A stretch of 64,000 nt of DNA, from NCBI GenBank assembly GCA_036172665.1, contig CM069874.1, positions 49,334,707 through 49,398,706 on the forward strand. The letters are read 5' to 3'. Positions within the stretch are counted from its first letter, which is position 1. Each line of letters opens with the position of its first letter. The stretch is from Prosopocoilus inquinatus. Its lineage: Eukaryota > Arthropoda > Insecta > Coleoptera > Lucanidae. Both the position numbers and the translations under genes were made by a program. Shown here piece by piece: positions 229-53,137 of the stretch. The notes under the pieces were generated by a model, which was given only the letters and a program-made list of their open reading frames with translations, made no database searches and was not told the DNA's origin.

Positions 229-269
229 GTTTGTGTAAACACTTTACGCCCGTAGTTAACGTTGTTACC

Positions 270-375
270 AACGAATAGCGACATCCTATCGCATTTTGAC
301 CTGACATTTTTTGATAGAGGCTGCACGAGGGTTTCACTGCAATCAAAAACGATTTGCTACAAAAAAGTTTTGTTG
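270..375 (-). repeat. Diverged fragment of the 312-bp hammerhead element family
   Basis: The stretch with ATAGCGACATCCTATCGC near 275 and TTTCACTGCAATCAAAAACG near 330 matches two separate parts of the monomer at 20590-21450 and 52231-52943. The segment that would carry the ribozyme core is deleted, so this is an old, inactive remnant. Confidence 0.6.
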
Positions 376-540
376 TTAGGAACCTTGGCTGTTCAAATGA
401 TCCTAACCTTGTTTGTTGCGTATACTCGTTATGGTTGTGTACTTTCTATTTTATCTGTACTTTCTGTTCTTTTTGCTGACAGTTGGCAATGGCTATTATA
501 AAAAAGGTCTGTCAAGTAATGCTGTAATGGAAGTTCACAA

Positions 541-14389: not shown

Positions 14390-16735
14390 ATAAAAGCAAA
14401 GAAAAAAGACGAACAATTGATTATCAAAATAAATAACAATAATATAGTGATCGTCAAATAAGAAAAAAAAAACAATAGACGGTCGTCGATGAAGGACGAA
14501 AATGAAAATCGTGTTATACCAACCGTAAGTGGTCAAATCGATATAAAAACCGACGAATTTTATCACAACCATTTCTTTTTGCAAATGCTAAAGAAATAAA
14601 ATACCATCGGTTAATAATTAAAAAAAATAATAAGATAAAATCAAATCTGTCAAAAGAGAAAACAAAACAACCGCAGTCAATCGACGGGATTAAATTGTAA
14701 AAGAAATTAAACTCAAATCGAATACAAAAAGAAGAAAAAACAAGACGATCAATTCGACAATTAAAAAATAAAATCAAATAAAAGAAAGAAAAACAAAGTT
14801 GCTGATATAAAAAAATCAAAAATCAAAACTAAACCAAACAAAATCGAATAAAAGGAAAAAAAAACACAAACAAATAGGTCGATCATTTGATTGATGATGA
14901 AAATTGAATTAAGTAAGGTCAAATAAGAAATTAAAAACAAAAGATGATCAGTGACGAAAGATAGGACGGCAAAAATTAAAATTCTATAAAAAATTTCAAA
15001 ACGTTAAACAAAAATTAAAATGTAAAACAAATTGAACGTAGACGTAGTTGTAAAAAAAAAAAATTTCCACTATATTGGAAATTGTAAGTAAAAAAGATCA
15101 GTTTTTTTACAACTACGTGTACGTTTAAATGGATTTCCACCACGTATCGACGAAATCAGTCAAAACAAATTAAACTCAAATCGAATAAAATACGGGAAAA
15201 AACAAAGGAAAAGGTCGATCAATGACTGCCCTGAAAATTGCATTAAATAAAGTCAAGTAAGGAATAAAAAAAAACAAAAGACGATCGGTGACGAAGATAA
15301 GACGATAAAAATAAAAATCCTATAAAATATTTCAAAACGTTAAATGATGAATACACAATTTATAACGTAAAACAAATTAAACTCTAATAGAATAAAGGCA
15401 GAAGAAAAAGAACAAGACCATCAATTTGAAATTGTAAAAAATAAAATAAAAGAAAAAACAAAAAATGATATTACATTGATAGTTAAAAAATAAAAACTAA
15501 ACTAAACGAAATCGAATAAAAAAATAAAAACCAAACAAAAAAGGTGGATCAATTGAATTAAGTGAAGTCAAATAAGGAATTTAAAAAACAAAAACAAAAA
15601 ACGGTGACGAAGATAAGAAGAAAAAAATTTCATAAAATATTTCGAAACATTAATGAACACAAAATTAAATTAAATGCAAATCGAGTAAAAGAAGAAAAAA
15701 AAAACAATACCATCAATTTGACAATTAAAAAATAAAATCCAATAAAAGAAAAAATAAAAGAAGATATAGGATTTGTTACTTAGAAAATAAAAACTAAACC
15801 AAACGAGATCAAGCGAAAGAAGAAAAAAAAAACAAACAAAAAAATAGTCGGCTCAATTGACTGTTTTGAAAATTGAATTAAATAAAGTCAAATAAGGAAT
15901 TAAGAAAACAAAAGACGATCGGTGACGAAAATAAGACGAAAATGAAAATTCCATAAAATATTTCCAAACGTTAAATAATGAACACAAAATTAAAATGTAA
16001 AACAAATTAAACGTAAATCGTATAGAAAATGAAAAAAAAGACAAGATCATTAATTTAACAATTAAAAAATAAAATCAAATAAAAGAAAAAACAAAAGATA
16101 ATGTAGGAATTGATAGTCAAAAAACAAAAACTAAACCAAACAAAATCGAATGAAAGAAAAAAAAACTAACAAAAAAATAAAATCGATCAATTGATTCACT
16201 TGAAAATTGAATTAAATAAAGTCAAGCAAGGAATTACAAAAACAACGGAAAACAAAAGAAGTTCGGTGACGAAGATAAGACGAAATTAAAAATTCTATAA
16301 AATATTTGAAAACGTTAAACAATGAATACAAAATTAAAATGTAAAACAAATAAAACTTACATCGAACAAAAGAAGAAAAAAACGTAACTAAGTCAAATCG
16401 AATCAAGAGCACTGACGAATTTTGAAAGTTATTTGGCAAAAAGAGAGAAAAGAAGAGAATCAAACTGTAAAGTGAAATAGAGCCAAGAACAAACAAAAGA
16501 CGATTAGTTTGTAAATTAAAAAAATTAAATAAAGACAAATAGAATCACAGACTGCAATTTGACAAAATTTATCTACTAGAGCTGTTTTAGAAATGCTGAC
16601 AATTAAAAAATAAAAAAAAGCAAGTAAAAGAAAAAACAAAAGGCGATATATTGAAAGTTAAAAAAATAATAAGTAAACCAAATGAAATCGAATAAAAGAG
16701 AAAAACAAAAAAAAGGTCGATCAGTTGACTGTCTT
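14390..16735 (+). repeat. A-rich satellite array, second block
   Basis: Further units of about 320 bp; the CGGTGACGAAGATAAG-like marker occurs at about 14951, 15283, 15601, 15921 and 16265. Units at 15278-15925 are almost identical to those at 10498-11150. Others have diverged and carry small insertions, such as the short hairpin at about 15043-15115 (GTAGTTGTAAAAAAA / TTTTTTTACAACTAC). Minus-strand open frames here are products of the purine strand bias, not genes. Confidence 0.85.
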
Positions 16736-19243: not shown

Positions 19244-20642
19244 AATAGTAAAATTTTTTTATTCTTATTGGTTATAAAAGATTCTGATTGCCCTAAGAAC
19301 CCCAAAAACTTAGAACATGGTAAATAGTGTTTTTGATAGTCTAAAATAAAGTGAAAATTATTCATTAAGGTTTGCAAAATATGGCAGTTTTTCCTTGCAA
19401 AATCACGTTAGTTGGCATTTCCTACATCTTGACATAAAATGTTTTTTTACATAATAACATATTTTTAAATTAAGAATGTCATATTTGCATGATCTGCTGT
19501 CTTACAATAACATATTACAGTAAAAATGAAATGACATGAATAAAGTATTATTATTATTTTTATTATTAAGAAAAACTATATATATATAAATTGAACTAAA
19601 AGTAAAAATATAATGGTGCTTGTTTCGAGGTCATCTCCATCATAAAAAATATTTTTTTTATTTCTATCTTGCACTTGCACCATTGCATTGAGTTATTCGC
19701 TGTTATTATGTTGATCTCCGTATTAATTTATTAAATAAAAGTTAATATATTTTTCAATTGTGGTAAAAAAAATACATAAACGTGTTATCAATAAAAATTG
19801 TGCAGGAAAAAATGCGTATTATCATCTCGTACGATTACGATTCCAAACTGATGCTGTTTTAAAAATATTAATAAAAATGTACCTGTTTTAAATCACAGCA
19901 CAGTGATGAGTGAAACGCCATTTAATGCATTGAACAAATATAACCAATAATATAACGGATCTCCGGGGAACTTTTACTGCTTTTTGGTCTAAAATCAAAT
20001 TAGGTTTCTGTAATATAGTTGTAGTATCTGATATTTATTAATATAGGGCACTAGCAATTCTTGATTGCAAAATGATAACTAATGAATCTAAATTCTAAAC
20101 TAAAAGTAGTTCGATGTTTACTTTGAACATCGATGTCCTGTCGATGATCATAAATCGTAAACATCGATGGCAAAAACATCGAACATCGACGATAAAACAT
20201 CGATGTTGAATCAACATCGATGTATATCGCCCATCCCTACTTCACACTTGAACATAACCGATGTAAAAATGTTCCACGAGTTATTCTATAGTAGAAAAGA
20301 CACAGCCGCTCAAGACACATTCATTCTTACATTTTGCACTGGAGCTCCTCCTAAAAAAAGAGGCCTAGGGTTAACAAACAAGCAAAATCTAAGGCCCATA
20401 GCATCTCCATTGCATATTCAATTAAAACTATAGAGGAACTAAAAATTACAGTTTTCGAAAGGCACTTTTGGGTGCATTAGATATAAAAAAAAGCCGAATT
20501 ATACGATTGGTAAATAAACTTGGGCAAACTCGAGGAGAAGGTAGAGTAAAAAATCAAGATGATGCAAAAAAAGAAACCATAAAAAAATATTTTAGAAAAA
20601 TTTTGTGCAAATCGTTTTTGATTGCAGTGAGAACCTCGAGCA

Positions 20643-20694
20643 GCCTCTGGACAGCTGTTTCAGCCCTGCTTGGGGCTTCTTCAGCAGAAACGTA
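20643..20694 (-). ncRNA. Hammerhead ribozyme motif
   Basis: Minus strand: CTGAAGA, stem II AGCCC/GGGCU with loop CAAGCA, GAAA, palindrome ACAGCUGU, then C (cleavage triplet GUC). Stem I pairs UUCUG before the core with CAGAG after the cleavage site. All conserved core bases are present, and A10.1-U11.1 closes stem II. Confidence 0.82.
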
Positions 20695-20906
20695 GCTCGA
20701 CATTCCCACTTTGACAGCAAGCATGGCCGCCTTGAATGGGGGACTCATTAGGAGCATATCCCGCTTCAATTTGTCTATCCTACTGCAATGTTAGGTCAAA
20801 AAGCGATAGTAAGATGTCTCTATTTTATTGTTCATCATTCTTACATCGCATTTGCGAATAAATTGGGCAAGTCGTTTTTGGTCTGCAGTGGGAATGTCGA
20901 GCTACG

Positions 20907-20954
20907 TTTTTGCTGAAGAAGCCCCAAGCAGGGCTGAAACAGCTGTCCAGAGGC
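20907..20954 (+). ncRNA. Hammerhead ribozyme motif
   Basis: Core CTGAAGA 20913-20919, stem II 20920-20935, GAAA 20936-20939, palindrome ACAGCUGU 20939-20946 and predicted cleavage after C20947. Stem I has one C-to-T change (UUUUG with CAGAG), which leaves a wobble pair. Confidence 0.8.
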
Positions 20955-21213
20955 TGCTCGAGGTTCTCACTGCAATCAAAAACGATTTGCACAAAAATTT
21001 TTTTATTATTATTAACATATAAAATAGCGGCATCTTACTATCGCTTTTTGACCTAACATTGCAGTAGGATAGACAAATTGAAGCGGGATTTGCTCCTAAT
21101 GAGTCCCCCATGCAAGGCGGCCATGCTTGCTGTCAAGGCATAATGAAAGATTTTAGAAAAATTTTGTGCAAATCGTTTTTGATTGCAGTGAGAACCTCGA
21201 GCAGCCTCTGGAC

Positions 21214-21260
21214 AGCTGCTGAAGAAGCCCCAAGCAGGTCTGAAACAGCTGTCCAGAGGC
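21214..21260 (+). ncRNA. Hammerhead ribozyme motif at an inversion joint
   Basis: Core CTGAAGA 21219-21225, stem II AGCCC/GGUCU (one mismatch), GAAA 21242-21245, ACAGCUGU and cleavage after C21253. Its 5' stem-I strand is supplied by the inverted unit, because the orientation switches at GGACAGCTG/CTGAAG just upstream. Confidence 0.75.
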
Positions 21261-22480
21261 TGCTCGAGGTTCTCACTGCAATCAAAAACGATTTGCACAA
21301 AATTTTTCTAAAATCTTTCATTATGCTTTGACAGCAAGCATGGCCGCCTTGCATGGGGGACTCATTAGGAGCAAATCCCGCTTCAGTTTGTCTATCCTAC
21401 TGCAATGTTAGGTCAAAAAGCGATAGTAAGATGTCGCTATTTTATATGTTCATAAAAAAATAGTATCGAAAGCCTTTTTTGCTGTAGTGATGCTCCTCCT
21501 CATTGAGGAATTGAATGTGAAGAAACTTTGGTTTATGTGTAATCTGCAGACCGAAAACAGCCTGAAGGTGAAGCGTAGTTACTTCAGAAGTTTTTTCAAC
21601 AGACATTGTAATGAGGGTTTTCGGACTTCTCAAACACATCAGTGTTCCAAATGCTTACAGTTTAAAGAAGAAAAATAAACACTGTACCGATCCCACTGCA
21701 AGAAACGAGTTAATTGCAAACTGCAGGTTAAAAGTTTCTATTATGACATGTGAAAAAAAGATGAACCTCAGATTGCCATTTTCTCTTTTGACTGCGAGAG
21801 GAATACGCTATTACCTAAATTGCCAGACCAACAATATGCAGATTAATTTCTATAATTTCTGTGTAGTAGCTGGAAATTCAAAATCAAAGCTTTCTGATAA
21901 CAATGTTTGGAGTTTTGTTTGGACAGAAGCAGACAGACCGAAAATTTCGAACGAGATTGCCTCTGCGGTTCATCGTTCATCATTTATCAAATGTTGAATA
22001 TTCTGGTGGCATAATTACAGTTCGCTTATTTTGTGATGGGTGCGATGCACAATATAAGAACTCCACACTTATGGAAATGCTTTGAAACTGGCTGTACTGT
22101 TCTGCTCGACCTCGCATTCAACAATGCGAAGTTATTTTTCCGGTGGTAGGCCACTCGTTCCTACCACCTGACAGTGTGTTCGGCAATTTAAAAAAAGTTG
22201 TGAGAAAACAGTCTGATATACTAAACCCAGAACAGTTACATAAATATAGTATCTTGAGCTAAAGTTTTAAAGATGCAGCAAGACTTTGTAGTTTTTGACT
22301 GAAAAAAAAAGAAATTCAAAGGATCCTTAAAAAAAATCCATCCAAATTTAAGACTTGCAAGCGATTTATTCTTAAAAGGAGCAAGGACACTGTCTTAATA
22401 ATGGAGCAAGGTAAAGGAATTTGTAAGAGAGGACTGAAAATTATAGGCATGAAGCCCAAAAGAACTAAATGTACAGGTAC

Positions 22481-37122: not shown

Positions 37123-37924
37123 TATAAGCAGTTTAACAACGATATGTTGTGGAATTAATTTGTAATATTTAATTCCACAATATATCGTTATATTAAAATC
37201 ATATCTAGTATCTAGAATACAGTACTGTGCGCTAGTAGCGTAATACTCATAGGAAAATAAAGTGGCTCAAGGCGTGCCACAGGGTACAATATAGGCACCT
37301 TTGCTCTTCTTGATTTACGTGAATAACTTGTATCTTTACTTAAATACGCAGTCGTTATATCAATCAATCAAGAAATAATTTTCCTGATCTTTCACTTGCA
37401 GCTGCTTGAACAATTACTGAAATGGCAGCCTGGTGCGACATGAACTCGTTAGTTTTAAACCGGAAGAAAACTAAAATCATTCTATTTACTAACAAACCCA
37501 GACATGAATCCCTATACATATATAAATTTTTATGGTAAATCACTCTGTCAACAATATTTTATCAAAAATTCCTGGGTGTAAATATAGATATTTTCAAATT
37601 TGACGACCAAATTAACAACCTTTATAGTAAGTTAAATAGGGCATTTTACGTGGTATATAACTTCGTCGTTCTTTCAATTGAAACAAGAAAATGACAATAA
37701 ATCAGGAGTATATTATTATTCTTCTTCTTATAATGTTGACTAGAATATTACTGACAATTTTGTTGAATTTACATCAAATTTCACATTCTAAACACTGATT
37801 TAAAGCAAAATAATAATTATTTTCAGCACTTTGAATTAACGAGAAGTTGATGTATAAGAACCCAGGGATAAACTAACTAAATTAATGAACAGATTGTCAA
37901 TAGTTATATGTTCCAAACATTATC

Positions 37925-38270
37925 TTCGTCGAACAGTTTAAACAGTGATATACTACGATCGCTTTTTTGACCTAATATTGCATTGGGATTGACAAATGGA
38001 AGCCAGATTGCTACATAATAAGTGATCTCATGCAAATCAGCCGTAGTAGCTGTCAAAAAAGCGATCGTAGGATGTCGCTGTTTAAACTGTTCGTTACTAT
38101 CAAATCGCAATTGCCATTATCCTTGGTCGAAACGTTTTGGTTTGGAGTGAAATTCCCGAGTTACGCTTCTGCGGAAGAAGCTCAAAATAGGGTTGAAACA
38201 GCTGTACAGATGCTGCTCGAGGGTTTCACTGCAATCAAAAACGATTTGCAACAAAATATTGTTATTTTCG
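37925..38270 (+). repeat. Diverged copy of the 312-bp hammerhead element family
   Basis: TACTACGATCGCTTTTTTG...GACAAATGGAAGC and GTAGCTGTCAAAAAAGCG...TAGGATGTCGC are inverted partners. They are followed by the ribozyme region at about 38160-38225, where the core reads CGGAAGA instead of CTGAAGA (U4 lost), while stem II, GAAA and the CAGCTG palindrome persist. Presumably catalytically dead. A parallel 50-codon frame stays open relative to the younger copies. Confidence 0.72.
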
Positions 38271-39471
38271 TCGTTCCGGTTCCAACCGTTCGTTCACCCT
38301 TGATGAATCGCATAGGCCCGGGTTCGCAAGAACGCTTATCCATCATGGTCAGATTCAAATCCGCAGTCGAAGTTGCAGTTACTTGCAAAAGTAAGGCACT
38401 GAGCTAGGTTTAGACGAAATTAATTGAGAACTCATTTAATTTTTGTTCCATGCTTGCATGTTAAGAAATATCGAAGCTTTAAAACGTGCATACCTATACA
38501 TACCGAACTAGTTTAATCCAAGCAACACGCAATAGTTGAATAAACGTATAAATTTTGCCCACATCAGTTTGCATAAAAGATAAAATGTCCGCGATATCTA
38601 CCGTAATCAAACACATGTAATGTTATGAAGGTCAATCAATTTGCAACATTTTGTGACTGACTGATGTAACACAGCACGAATAAACATTAATCCTGTATAA
38701 GTACATGAAAAATAACAAAATTTGCACTCATCACTCTGTATCAAAATAGTAAACTACTGAAGCAACACGCTGTAGTTTAATATACGTGCATTCAACCATA
38801 TTTTGGTTTTGGTAAACGCTTACGGTCGACGTACATGTTTTATACTGTGTAATAAACGTGTACGGTTGTACCAGCTTGATACAGAAATATCGTATGTAGT
38901 ATATGAGACTCGTTTTTTCAACAACTATCACGCGGATATTTTATCCTTTATTAAATGTGTATGGATAATGAATTTATCCGAAAAATTACCAAAATATGGT
39001 TGTACAAAGGTATATCAAACTGCACTTTGGCGTGTTTCTTCGGAAGTTCTTTCACAACCGGCTATATTATCGGTGTCGGTCCCGTATTTGCAGCATTCGT
39101 GTCCGGATCCGAAAGTAGAACTAACCGTAGTGCATTTCGGAACGACAACGGTTTTTTTCCGATTATAGAAAAACTTCATTTCTATCGGTTCGTTCGCAAA
39201 TAACACATCTCTAATTGACAAGGCGAATATTAAGAAAAAAAACTCCATGTGATAGGACGTGACTCCAAACTCCAAACCTAAAAATAAAATATCACGGCTT
39301 GCTGCGTATTTAAATCAGTCGTGAACGAAGTAGGTCTAATTAGTGAGTAATGCACACCTCAGACTCTTTCAAGCTTTTCGACTAAAGTTTGGCATGTCAA
39401 GCTAGTCCAGCGTCAAATTTGTCGATACACCCGCTAGCGTAGCTTTGGGTATGGGTAGCTTTCTCCAAATA
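38271..39471. other. Intronic interval, nothing recognised
   Basis: Overlapping open frames at 38803-39203 have no family resemblance. Codon use and the overlap of several frames do not single out one as real. Confidence 0.35.
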
Positions 39472-41933: not shown

Positions 41934-44192
41934 ATGGCGGATTATAATATAAACTTTGCAAGAGGCTACAGTGAAGAACAAGCTTTTATGGATGTATACA
42001 ATTCTGATTTTGAGATCATTGATAACGAGAGCGATGGTAGTGATGCAGACGATGATTTCACTGAACTGCAGATAGTCGAAGCAAATGATACTGATACTGA
42101 TAATGAAGACGGGAATGAAGAAGTTTGGATTAGCAAGGATGGAATAATACAGTGGAGTAGTATGGAGCCAGGACGTAAAAAAACACAGTCAAGGAATATT
42201 ATAAAACAAATTCCTGGTATATCAAAACATTTAAATTTGTCCACCCGCACAGACTGCTTTTGTGTATTTATGACGAACGAAATCATAGACAAAATATGAT
42301 TGCACACCAATGAAAGGGCAAATGAACAAAAGGAAAAGAAGTCAAGCTTAAAAAATTGGAAGGAATTACAACGTAGTGAGCTTTTGGCATTTTTGGGTCT
42401 AAGCTTGCTTTATGGTATTCAGAAGGGTCACGGGAAAGATCTAAAAGAATTTTGGTCAGAAAAGTACGGTTATCCAATTTTTAGAGCTACAATGTCCAGA
42501 CATCGTTTCACGAACATACTTAGCTGTCTACGATTTGATGACAGAGGTACACGAGAAATTAGAAAAGAAGCAACTAAGAACAAGATTGAACCTATAGCTG
42601 AAATAACTAATATGTTCGTTAGTCAATGCAAGAATGCTTATATACCAAATATTTCTGTGGACGAACACCTGTGTACTTTTAGAGGAAGATGTGGTTTCAA
42701 GGTTTATATTCCTTCAAAGCCGGGAAAATATGGTATAAAAATATGGATGGCTGTAGACTGTGACTCTCGATACATTACAAACCTGCAAATATATTCTGTC
42801 AAAATAGGAAACACAAAGGAACAGGAACAAGGAAAGCGGGTGGTGTTAGATTTGGTAACGCACCTAAACGGCTCTGGTCGCAATATTACTACTGATAACT
42901 TCTTTACTAGCTACAGTATTGGGCAGGAATTATTGAAACAAAAATTAACTCTTGTCGGAACTGTCCGTAAACACCGTAAAGAGCTTCCTTCCTGTATGCT
43001 GCCGCCAAAATTTCGTGAAGAGAAATCATCTGTTTTTGCTTATGCCAACAATACATTATTAGTTTCTTACGTTCCTAAAAAAGGAAAGGCTGTAGTTTTG
43101 TTGTCTACTCAACATAATAGATTTGACGTATCCGACGAAGAGCACAGAAAACCGGAAGTAATACTAAATTACAATTCCACTAAATTCGTTGTTGATACTA
43201 TAGATCAAATGGCTAGGACCTATTCAACAAAAAGATCGATAAGAAGATGGCCACTTGCAGTATTTTTTGATCTTGCGGATTTTGCTGGAATTAATGCTTA
43301 CGTATTATTTTCTGAGCTTGACAATACATACGAAAATAAAACTGGAAGACGCCGCATCTTACTAGAACTAGGCGACGAATTAGTAAAACAAGAAATAGAA
43401 AATAGAATTCAATATTCCCAATCCAAGGCAAGGAAAATTCATAAGGCCATTGAAAATGCAGGGTTTGGAAACTTACTTCAACAATACAAACACCCGGACC
43501 TACCACAAAATAAACGAGGAAGATGCAGCATTTATCCACGGCAAGCAGACAGAAAAACAAATATTTTATGTGATATGTGCAGTAAATTCGTTTGTAAGGA
43601 GCACCTTGAAATGCGCAAATTATGTTTTACATGTACTAGTTTAACGTTAGATGACAGTGAAGAGCACAGAAAACCGGAAGTAATACTAAATTACAATTCC
43701 ACTAAATTCGTTGTTGATACTATAGATCAAATGGCTAGGACCTATTCAACAAAAAGATCGATAAGAAGATGGCCACTTGCAGTATTTTTTGATCTTGCGG
43801 ATTTTGCTGGAATTAATGCTTACGTATTATTTTCTGAGCTTGACAATACATACGAAAATAAAACTGGAAGACGCCGCATCTTACTAGAACTAGGCGACGA
43901 ATTAGTAAAACAAGAAATAGAAAATAGAATTCAATATTCCCAATCCAAGGCAAGGAAAATTCATAAGGCCATTGAAAATGCAGGGTTTGGAAACTTACTT
44001 CAACAATACAAACACCCGGACCTACCACAAAATAAACGAGGAAGATGCAGCATTTATCCACGGCAAGCAGACAGAAAAACAAATATTTTATGTGATATGT
44101 GCAGTAAATTCGTTTGTAAGGAGCACCTTGAAATGCGCAAATTATGTTTTACATGTACTAGTTTAACGTTAGATGACAGTGGCTCAGACTAA
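41934..44192 (+). pseudogene. piggyBac transposase with one stop and a duplicated C-terminus
   Basis: The ATG at 41934 opens an acidic N-terminus (IDNESDGSDADDDFTELQ), but a TGA at 42297-42299 interrupts the frame after codon 121. The same frame then runs 630 codons. The DDD catalytic residues are visible in SVDEHLCTFRGR (first), NITTDNFFTS (second) and VVDTIDQMARTYS (third). The C-terminal cysteine-rich domain reads CDMCSKFVCKEH...LCFTC. From EEHRKPEVIL to LTLDDS, 174 codons are present twice without a difference, so the protein would carry two third-Asp regions and two cysteine-rich domains. Activity would need readthrough or an internal start, and the duplication is likely to disturb folding. 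Two changes in an otherwise clean gene suggest recent inactivation or an assembly error. Confidence 0.92.
43137..44180 (+). repeat. Exact tandem duplication, 2 x 522 bp
   Basis: 43137-43658 and 43659-44180 read the same throughout. The period is 174 codons, so the frame is kept. The junction is ATGACAGT/GAAGAGCAC, while the first copy is entered from TCCGAC/GAAGAGCAC. No divergence is visible, so it is either very recent or artefactual. Confidence 0.95.
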
Positions 44193-52040: not shown

Positions 52041-52281
52041 ATATAAAAATTATTGTGGGCGGAGGTTAATTTCAATTAAAACGAAGAAAGGTCAAAAATT
52101 GAAATCTCCCAGTTACTTCTATCCAAACTTGTCCTGGTAAAATTAACGTTCTTATTTTTAAGTGGAAGTTAAATGCGTAATTTTGCTAAAACACAAGATA
52201 AGCACGACTATTAATAGTAAATTTTATATTTTACAAAAATTTTTTGCAAATCGTTTCTGATTGCAGTGAGAACCTCGAGCA

Positions 52282-52333
52282 GCCTCTGGACAGCTGTTTC
52301 AGCCCTGCTTGGGGCTTCTTCAGCAGAAACGTA
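52282..52333 (-). ncRNA. Hammerhead ribozyme motif
   Basis: Same structure as the motif at 52708-52757, in the opposite orientation. All core bases, AGCCC/GGGCU stem II, the ACAGCUGU palindrome and the 5-bp stem I are intact. Confidence 0.83.
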
Positions 52334-52707
52334 GCTCGACATTCCCACTGCAGACCAAAAACGACTTGCCCAATTTATTCGCAATTGCGATGTAAGAATG
52401 ATGAACATATAAAATAGCGACATCTTACTATCGCTTTTTGACCTAACATTGCAATAGGATAGACAAATTGAAGCGGGATTTGCTCCTAATGAGTCCCCCA
52501 TGCAAGGCGGCCATGCTTGCTGTCAAAGCATAATGAAAGATTTTAGAAAAATTTTTTGCAAATCGTTTCTGATTGCAGTGAGAACCTCGAGCAGCCTCTG
52601 GACAGCGATAGTAAGATGTCGCTATTTTATATGTTCATCATTCTTACATCGCAATTGCGAATAAATTGGGCAAGTCGTTTTTGGTCTGCAGTGGGAATGT
52701 CGAGCTA

Positions 52708-52757
52708 CGTTTCTGCTGAAGAAGCCCCAAGCAGGGCTGAAACAGCTGTCCAGAGGC
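52708..52757 (+). ncRNA. Hammerhead ribozyme motif
   Basis: Stem I strand UUCUG (52711-52715), CTGAAGA 52716-52722, stem II 52723-52738, GAAA 52739-52742, ACAGCUGU 52742-52749, cleavage after C52750, then CAGAG pairing back to UUCUG. A dimer would form stem III through the 8-nt palindrome. Confidence 0.83.
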
Positions 52758-53137
52758 TGCTCGAGGTTCTCACTGCAATCAGAAACGATTTGCAAAAATT
52801 TTTTCTAAAATCTTTCATTATGCTTTGACAGCAAGCATGGCCGCCTTGCATGGGGGACTCATTAGGAGCAAATCCCGCTTCAATTTGTCTATCCTACTGC
52901 AATGTTAGGTCAAAAAGCGATAGTAAGATGTCGCTATTTTATAAGTAAATTTTATATTAAACATCAGAATTACTAGTGACATTTTGTGTACGTACCAAAC
53001 GTCAGAAATATTAAAGTCACGTTTACGTTATCAAAATGACCCGGATTTTATTGTCCGCTACTGTACGGTGCATTTTTTCAAAAAATAACATATTTTCACG
53101 TTTGAACAACTTTATTCTAAATTCATTTTTTACCTTT

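Follow-up and report, generated by a model that had tools for sequence, protein, structure and literature searches.

Inverted insertions of a 312-nt hammerhead-bearing unit, probably a retrozyme, with two preferred outer ends in the genome of Prosopocoilus inquinatus

Inverted copies and their target duplications

The window, the whole 64-kb stretch of the Prosopocoilus inquinatus genome (contig CM069874.1) that was analysed, contains open reading frames with the Pfam domains HTH_Tnp_Tc3_2, DDE_Tnp_1_7 and RVT_1, which we take to be a Tc1-like gene, a piggyBac-like gene and LINE genes, respectively. It also harbours four insertions of a ribozyme-bearing unit, located in BLAST searches with the doubled monomer at 52231-52943, 20590-21450, 37932-38261 and 273-371. 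These insertions, numbered 1 to 4 in this order, constitute our sample of four copies from one 64-kb window; copies 3 and 4 were absent from the first-pass annotation of the region. In copy 1, an insertion of 713 bp, an inverted arm is followed by a direct arm, both derived from a 312-nt monomer whose reference sequence was taken from the direct arm (52604-52915) and whose positions are denoted as mono. The features of copy 1 include the two zones, termed E1 and E2, in which the outer ends of the copies are found:

52216..52230, no strand: left target duplication of copy 1, AGTAAATTTTATATT
52231..52603, minus strand: inverted arm of copy 1 (373 nt), antisense, from mono 205 (E1) once around the unit and on to mono 145
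52604..52943, plus strand: direct arm of copy 1, sense mono 1-312 and on to mono 28 (E2), 340 nt
52944..52958, no strand: right target duplication of copy 1, 15/15 identical
52804..52811, plus strand: E1 zone, mono 201-208, putative reverse-transcription start site, in 4/4 copies
52626..52638, plus strand: E2 zone, mono 23-35, putative reverse-transcription start site, in 4/4 copies

The boundaries at 52231 and 52943 proposed in the first-pass annotation proved to be exact, and the 15-bp repeat enclosing them is perfect, compared to chance repeats of at most 9 bp without mismatch among 1500 pairs of random positions. The change to the inverted monomer, also described in that annotation, is placed at 52603/52604. 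Its head-to-tail period of 312 bp is real, as manifested in a 67-nt repeat at 52228/52540 and a 31-nt repeat at 52604/52916, but covers just 1.1-1.2 units per arm without forming a full dimer. The period arises because the arms, of 373 and 340 nt, each exceed the length of a unit; both contain an intact core of the type I hammerhead.

Copy 2, a close relative of copy 1 in sequence, had previously been recognized together with its 12-bp duplication, and both are confirmed here. Its organization is composite:

20578..20589, no strand: left target duplication of copy 2, CATAAAAAAATA
20590..21450, no strand: copy 2, part 1, antisense mono 207 to 89, sense mono 220 to 201, then AT-rich filler
20590..21450, no strand: copy 2, part 2, after the filler antisense from about mono 38 to 143, sense mono 110 to 32
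21451..21462, no strand: right target duplication of copy 2, 12/12 identical

The last arm of this copy extends to mono 35 if three bases in common with the duplication are counted. A nested insertion was considered and rejected, as inspection by eye revealed no separate duplication around the inner units; since the outer 12-bp duplication brackets the entire copy and none is found inside, we read copy 2 as one composite event. At its middle joint (about 21003-21016), AT-rich filler separates an E1 end from an E2 end. By eye, this filler resembles both the target duplication of the copy and E1, as though priming at E1 had occurred a second time from a primer that had been copied back.

Copies 3 and 4 are shorter and are arranged as follows:

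37920..37931, no strand: left target duplication of copy 3, TTATCTTCGTCG
37932..38055, minus strand: inverted arm of copy 3, 75% identical, E2 (mono 32) to mono 223
38056..38261, plus strand: direct arm of copy 3, 78% identical, mono 309 to E1 (about 202, last bases by eye)
38262..38273, no strand: right target duplication of copy 3, 11/12 identical
261..272, no strand: left target duplication of copy 4, GTTGTTACCAAC
273..371, no strand: copy 4 (99 bp), antisense from mono 23 (E2) to about 298, some unassigned bases, sense 149 to E1
372..383, no strand: right target duplication of copy 4, 10/12 identical

All target duplications are longer than 4 bp, with perfect repeats of 15 and 12 bp in copies 1 and 2 and 12-bp repeats containing one and two mismatches in copies 3 and 4. 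In 1500 random position pairs sampled with the same wobble, perfect repeats of at least 12 bp were found in none, whereas repeats of at least this length occurred in six pairs with one mismatch and in 21 with two, so that, taken singly, the duplications flanking copies 3 and 4 are just fair. A fixed duplication length, which the first-pass annotation had associated with a DNA transposase family, is not observed, as both 15 and 12 bp are found. Immediately to the left of copy 4, at about 113-230 of the window (ends by eye), we noticed a possible further inverted-repeat element.

Predicted hammerhead ribozyme, RNA fold and coding capacity

Candidate ribozymes were identified with a strict pattern for a type I hammerhead, which comprises a CUGANGA core, stem II with 4 or more pairs, GAA, a stem III that opens with A-U and one further pair, A, C or U at the cut and 4 pairs of stem I. 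The pattern has four matches in the 64-kb window, all within this family (two each in copies 1 and 2), and none in 300 first-order Markov random 64-kb sequences:

52285..52323, minus strand: type I hammerhead in the inverted arm of copy 1, strict pattern
52710..52756, plus strand: type I hammerhead in the direct arm of copy 1, Rfam RF00163 at 23.8 bits, strict pattern at 52716-52754
20646..20684, minus strand: hammerhead in the first arm of copy 2, strict pattern
20913..20951, plus strand: hammerhead in the second arm of copy 2, strict pattern

Judged by its sequence, the predicted ribozyme of the unit is a type I hammerhead. The presence of cores on both strands of copy 1, noted in the first-pass annotation, is borne out by the strict matches at 52716-52754 (plus) and 52285-52323 (minus), and the cut in the direct arm is predicted to follow mono 147 (window 52750). 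The alignment of Rfam Hammerhead_1 to 52710-52756 shows the expected structure and scores 23.8 bits, which is below the 34-bit cut-off, and this match appeared only with a chosen 131-base stretch as query and in neither of the whole-window Rfam lists. In the entire window, six arm segments bear a core, four of which are intact with respect to the strict pattern, which is at odds with core mutations in nearly all copies, an outcome that the annotation had named as a refutation of its reading. In the remaining two, a pair of stem II is broken (copy 2, 21217-21250) or the core has mutated from CTGAAGA to CGGAAGA (direct arm of copy 3), and copy 4 begins beside the cut and contains no core. Stem III, ACAGCTGT, can form 2 pairs and a palindromic 4-nt loop, an arrangement which, in the available text of PMC7229834, is also described for a second axolotl type with weak cleavage on its own and better cleavage as a dimer. 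In the minimum-energy fold, a competing helix takes the place of the hammerhead. With the sense arm of copy 4 starting at mono 149, next to the predicted cut (147/148), ribozyme cleavage was considered as a 5' stop; we rejected such a rule because in copies 1, 2 and 3 arms continue across that site.

Two predicted structural elements of the RNA lie next to the end zones:

52670..52793, plus strand: long predicted hairpin that extends hammerhead stem I, with E1 a few bases 3'
52604..52623, plus strand: small predicted stem-loop AGCGA...TCGCT, stable when folded alone (z -5.0), with E2 immediately 3'

When the whole circle is folded, a larger hairpin spanning mono 2-49, whose loop contains E2, forms instead of the small stem-loop, and the stem-loop on the E1 side is unstable alone (z -0.54). 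Both zones are predicted to be largely unpaired, with values of 0.65 for E1 and 0.78 for E2 compared to a mean of 0.33 over the circle, and equally open stretches make up 11% of 8-nt windows in case of E1 and 2% of 13-nt windows in case of E2. Covariation in the long hairpin is suggestive at most, with two pairs changed on both sides, a result matched in 37 of 500 shuffles and also obtained with the structure slid by -1 column. Immediately before E1, a 23-nt block, CACTGCAATCANAAACGATTTGC, is unchanged in 9/9 arm segments if one N is allowed, in a pattern derived from the same copies. The block is located at 335-357, 20607-20629, 38227-38249, 52246-52268 and five more positions, and its preservation even in diverged copies of about 78% identity suggests that it possibly serves as a recognition site. 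MicroRNA-type Rfam matches to the inverted arms, which are all below the cut-offs, were discarded; they result from the self-complementarity of these arms.

The circle of 312 nt is divisible by three and contains an open frame of 103 residues. Over 66 codons, this frame is uninterrupted in copy 3 and the two arms of copy 1, but a frameshift breaks it in copy 2. A comparison of copies 1 and 3 over these codons yields a dN/dS of 1.06 (1.16 and 0.49 in the other two sense frames, which contain stops), and the chance of the frame staying open under neutrality is 0.21. A length-limited search found no protein of similar length sharing three words with the translated frame, and Pfam returned no family above its cut-off, the match to Yos1 (E 0.051) being below it. 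A dN/dS of 1.06, the neutral chance of 0.21 and the lack of a homologue in the length-limited search together argue against a protein-coding monomer. Searches for relatives of the monomer gave no matches in the collections viral_contigs and genome_contigs, which says little, as neither is a collection of insect genomes and the search may leave out records of the genome from which the window originates.

Outer ends, inner junctions and the proposed mode of insertion

The composition of each copy was described by a path model, which assigns antisense and sense stretches over the circular monomer. For copy 1, it runs antisense from 208 to 145 (one turn and more) and sense from 1 to 31; for copy 2, antisense from 223 to 89, sense from 220 to 201 and, after the filler, antisense from 38 to 143 and sense from 110 to 35; for copy 3, antisense from 33 to 223 and sense from 309 to 195; and for copy 4, antisense from 23 to 298 and sense from 149 to 190. 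The model is permissive, and short stretches of flanking DNA that it assigned by chance were ignored. It overran into the duplications of copies 1-3 and ended too early in copies 3 and 4, whose last bases are AT-rich, and the ends reported here were thus trimmed at the duplications, with the last bases placed by eye.

All four copies are inverted, with the sense 3' ends pointing outward, and each has one outer end in E1 and one in E2. The E1 ends are located at mono 205, 207, about 202 and, placed by eye, about 204 in copies 1 to 4, and one inner end of copy 2, at mono 201, falls into the same zone. The corresponding E2 ends are at 28, 32, 32 and 23, and reach up to 35 if bases in common with the duplications are counted. 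A match between the ends of copies 1 and 2 had already been remarked upon in the first-pass annotation. Among 200000 draws of eight uniformly distributed ends, none produced two groups of four inside zones of 13 nt, and the pairing of one E1 with one E2 end in all four copies would have, by simple arithmetic, a 1-in-16 chance if the choice were random. Neither outer end of the four copies carries a poly(A) or simple-repeat tail.

The five inverted junctions (145|1, 89|220, 143|110, 223|309 and about 298|149) are all different. Four of the five were scored by a script and display microhomologies of 3, 2, 3 and 2 nt, compared to a mean of 0.70 nt and about 17% of cases with 2 or more in the null distribution. 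By eye, the microhomology at the junction of copy 3 extends to 6 nt if its own A-run is used, and the junction of copy 4 may share 3 nt. As junctions differ and outer ends are common, each insertion event most likely generated the inversion independently, which agrees with the suggestion of the first-pass annotation that concatemer and inversion of a non-autonomous ribozyme element originate during reverse transcription.

The data suggest twin priming on one RNA or dual priming on two RNAs, in either case with a tandem or circular template, since arms exceeding one unit require a multimeric or circular RNA. We consider it probable that the element is a non-autonomous, non-coding animal retrozyme, inserted by two-strand priming via a partner that is most likely of the Penelope type. 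For this route, we infer the cleavage and circularity of the RNA, the identity of the enzyme and the participation of one or two RNA molecules from the structure of the copies. A tandem or circular RNA of the 312-nt unit would serve as template, with processing by the type I hammerhead that it contains, and the reverse transcriptase/endonuclease of the partner would introduce a staggered break with two 3' overhangs of 12-15 nt. Both overhangs would prime reverse transcription, with one start at E1, which directly follows the long ribozyme hairpin on its 3' side, and a second at E2, within the smaller hairpin or directly 3' of it. The two antisense cDNAs would then converge, sometimes after more than one passage around the unit, and be joined at short microhomologies, giving rise to inverted arms with outer ends in common and variable inner joints. 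A structure with putative internal start sites and inverted units, as expected for Penelope-type integration with priming on both strands, is seen in all four copies, and the pattern fits several enzymes. We tentatively extend the proposal to a possible, if doubtful, scheme where two-strand priming would be the standard route of insertion: the circle would carry two start modules, both held by a dimeric Penelope-type enzyme, so that each cut strand would start on a different module and conventional second-strand synthesis would be unneeded. The copies contain no open reading frame for a reverse transcriptase or endonuclease, and no GIY-YIG domain was found in the 10 scanned of the 15 window frames of at least 130 residues.

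Relationship to known retroelements and alternative origins

Among described systems, the element best fits the animal non-LTR retrozymes. According to the portions of PMC7229834 available, these have a type I hammerhead, are non-autonomous, give rise to highly self-paired RNA and are flanked by target duplications longer than 4 bp, all as found or predicted here, with units of 170-400 nt and a G+C content below 50% (312 nt and 0.43 in our case). Animal retrozymes are further characterized by head-to-tail units of about 150-450 bp and by a non-coding sequence devoid of LTR, PBS and PPT; our copies appear to be non-coding, and their head-to-tail period spans 1.1-1.2 units in each arm of copy 1. 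As they are likewise non-autonomous, the lack of a protein, which the first-pass annotation had counted as a difference from retrozymes, does not distinguish the element. The inverted layout, the second difference claimed, does set it apart from the retrozymes described in that paper, whose main text is free of the words 'inverted', 'opposite' and 'head-to-head', although Penelope elements frequently contain inverted repeats (PMC3846280, as far as its text was accessible). In contrast to animal retrozymes, 4/4 copies are inverted, there are two preferred outer ends and no two full head-to-tail units are present. The literature searched, which excludes most subscription papers, contains no account of inverted or twin-primed retrozymes; within this coverage, a constant inversion with two start zones is undescribed for retrozymes but resembles Penelope-like elements. 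The LTR retrozymes of plants share a non-coding unit delimited by ribozymes but have, as described in the accessible parts of PMC4918200, a type III hammerhead, LTRs, PBS and PPT and duplications of 4 bp, unlike the type I hammerhead and 12-15 bp duplications observed here.

In a somewhat unlikely alternative, the retrozyme RNA would have been inserted by a LINE, with unusually frequent twin priming of the L1 style, which preserves the two-strand priming of the Penelope-type reading and replaces the enzyme. Two frames with RVT_1 domains are present in the window and duplications of 12-15 bp fit LINE enzymes, whereas the two preferred internal start zones and the absence of a poly(A) or simple-repeat tail at either end do not favour such a scenario; to our knowledge, preferred internal start zones of this kind are not a feature of L1. 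Hammerhead repeats of Nematostella with LINE-like duplications of 15 bp are mentioned in the available text of PMC4918200. The accessible portion of PMC2837659 defines twin priming (one RNA) and dual priming (two RNAs) for L1 and describes how the former, by two-strand priming, generates inverted fragments of one RNA between duplications. Our copies equally contain inverted halves between duplications, with microhomology at the joints (4/5 inverted junctions scored). However, in the same account twin priming is a variant outcome of L1 insertion with an internal deletion, whereas here 4/4 copies are inverted, start zones are preferred and arms can overlap or exceed one unit.

The Penelope-like elements, in the parts of PMC3846280 and PMC11167929 at hand, offer a mechanistic parallel, with tandem and inverted units, a hammerhead, AT-rich targets and short duplications, and with reverse transcription that starts internally, 3' of the ribozyme, at two sites while both strands are cut and extended. 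In the accessible text of PMC11167929, the enzyme of the Anolis Poseidon element PAc cuts and extends both strands from two adjacent internal RNA starts 3' of the hammerhead and favours AT-rich ATT sites. Hammerhead mutants had no effect on insertion in vitro in this system, and an enzyme of this kind therefore does not necessarily depend on ribozyme cutting. The Penelopes of A. vaga contain tandem and inverted pseudo-LTRs, several with duplications of 8-10 bp and some without, and the authors favoured self-priming over twin priming for the inverted junctions (PMC3846280, available text). Our copies differ from Penelope-like elements in the absence of a reverse transcriptase or endonuclease gene and in the spacing of the start zones, which are about 135-140 nt apart on the circle compared to 30-40 in the elements of the sources available, with one of each used per insertion. 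Penelope-like elements were proposed as strong candidate movers of animal retrozymes by Cervera and de la Pena 2020 (PMC7229834, as available), and the four copies fit this proposal. They provide indirect, structural evidence for a partner of the Penelope type.

The same parallels could indicate that the copies are pseudo-LTR remnants, internally deleted versions of an autonomous Penelope-like element, which we hold to be unlikely and whose mechanism overlaps with the one preferred here. Both tandem and inverted copies are described for the pseudo-LTRs of Penelope, which measure about 200 bp (PMC3846280), and type I hammerheads are found in Penelope-like elements (PMC11167929; PMC7761336), both according to the portions available. 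Against this origin stand the lack of Penelope coding sequence in the copies and of any sign of a protein in the monomer frame (dN/dS 1.06, no homologue in the length-limited search), and the minimal Penelope hammerheads that, in the accessible text of PMC7761336, are without helix III or loop contacts, whereas in our unit 2 pairs and a 4-nt loop can form. A further explanation assumes a single master locus with inverted arms, whose transcript would be inserted by ordinary single priming so that the inversion is inherited. The recurrence of the E1 and E2 pair in 4/4 copies would be accounted for, but the inverted junctions are found at different positions of the monomer, which is not predicted by inheritance from one master and renders this origin highly improbable. 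Transposase-driven mobilization, with the copies representing a fold-back element or a miniature inverted-repeat DNA transposon, is extremely improbable, as long inverted repeats between target duplications and transposase-like frames in the window are opposed by outer ends that differ (E1 and E2) and are not inverted repeats of each other, a varying internal order, duplications of 15 and 12 bp and arms of copy 1 that exceed one monomer.

With the preferred reading of two-strand priming by a Penelope-type partner, the copies would record both priming events at two positions of the RNA and permit a direct test of the Penelope-mover proposal, namely whether a Penelope-like enzyme of the host starts at E1 and E2. 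Such copies might further account for the frequent inverted orientation of Penelope pseudo-LTRs.

Several observations concern other repeats of the window. At 15667-16382, a two-copy A-rich tandem repeat of 337 bp with 81% match between its units does not match the retrozyme monomer. The Tc1-like protein has 3170 matches; among the 120 listed, three are given with an organism, all of them insects (Anoplophora twice, Macrosteles). Finally, as seen in its translation, the last part of the piggyBac-like transposase frame (DDE_Tnp_1_7, 42300-44192, plus strand) is tandemly repeated in frame, and this duplication is marked by chance Rfam matches at 43407 and 43929, which are 522 bp apart.
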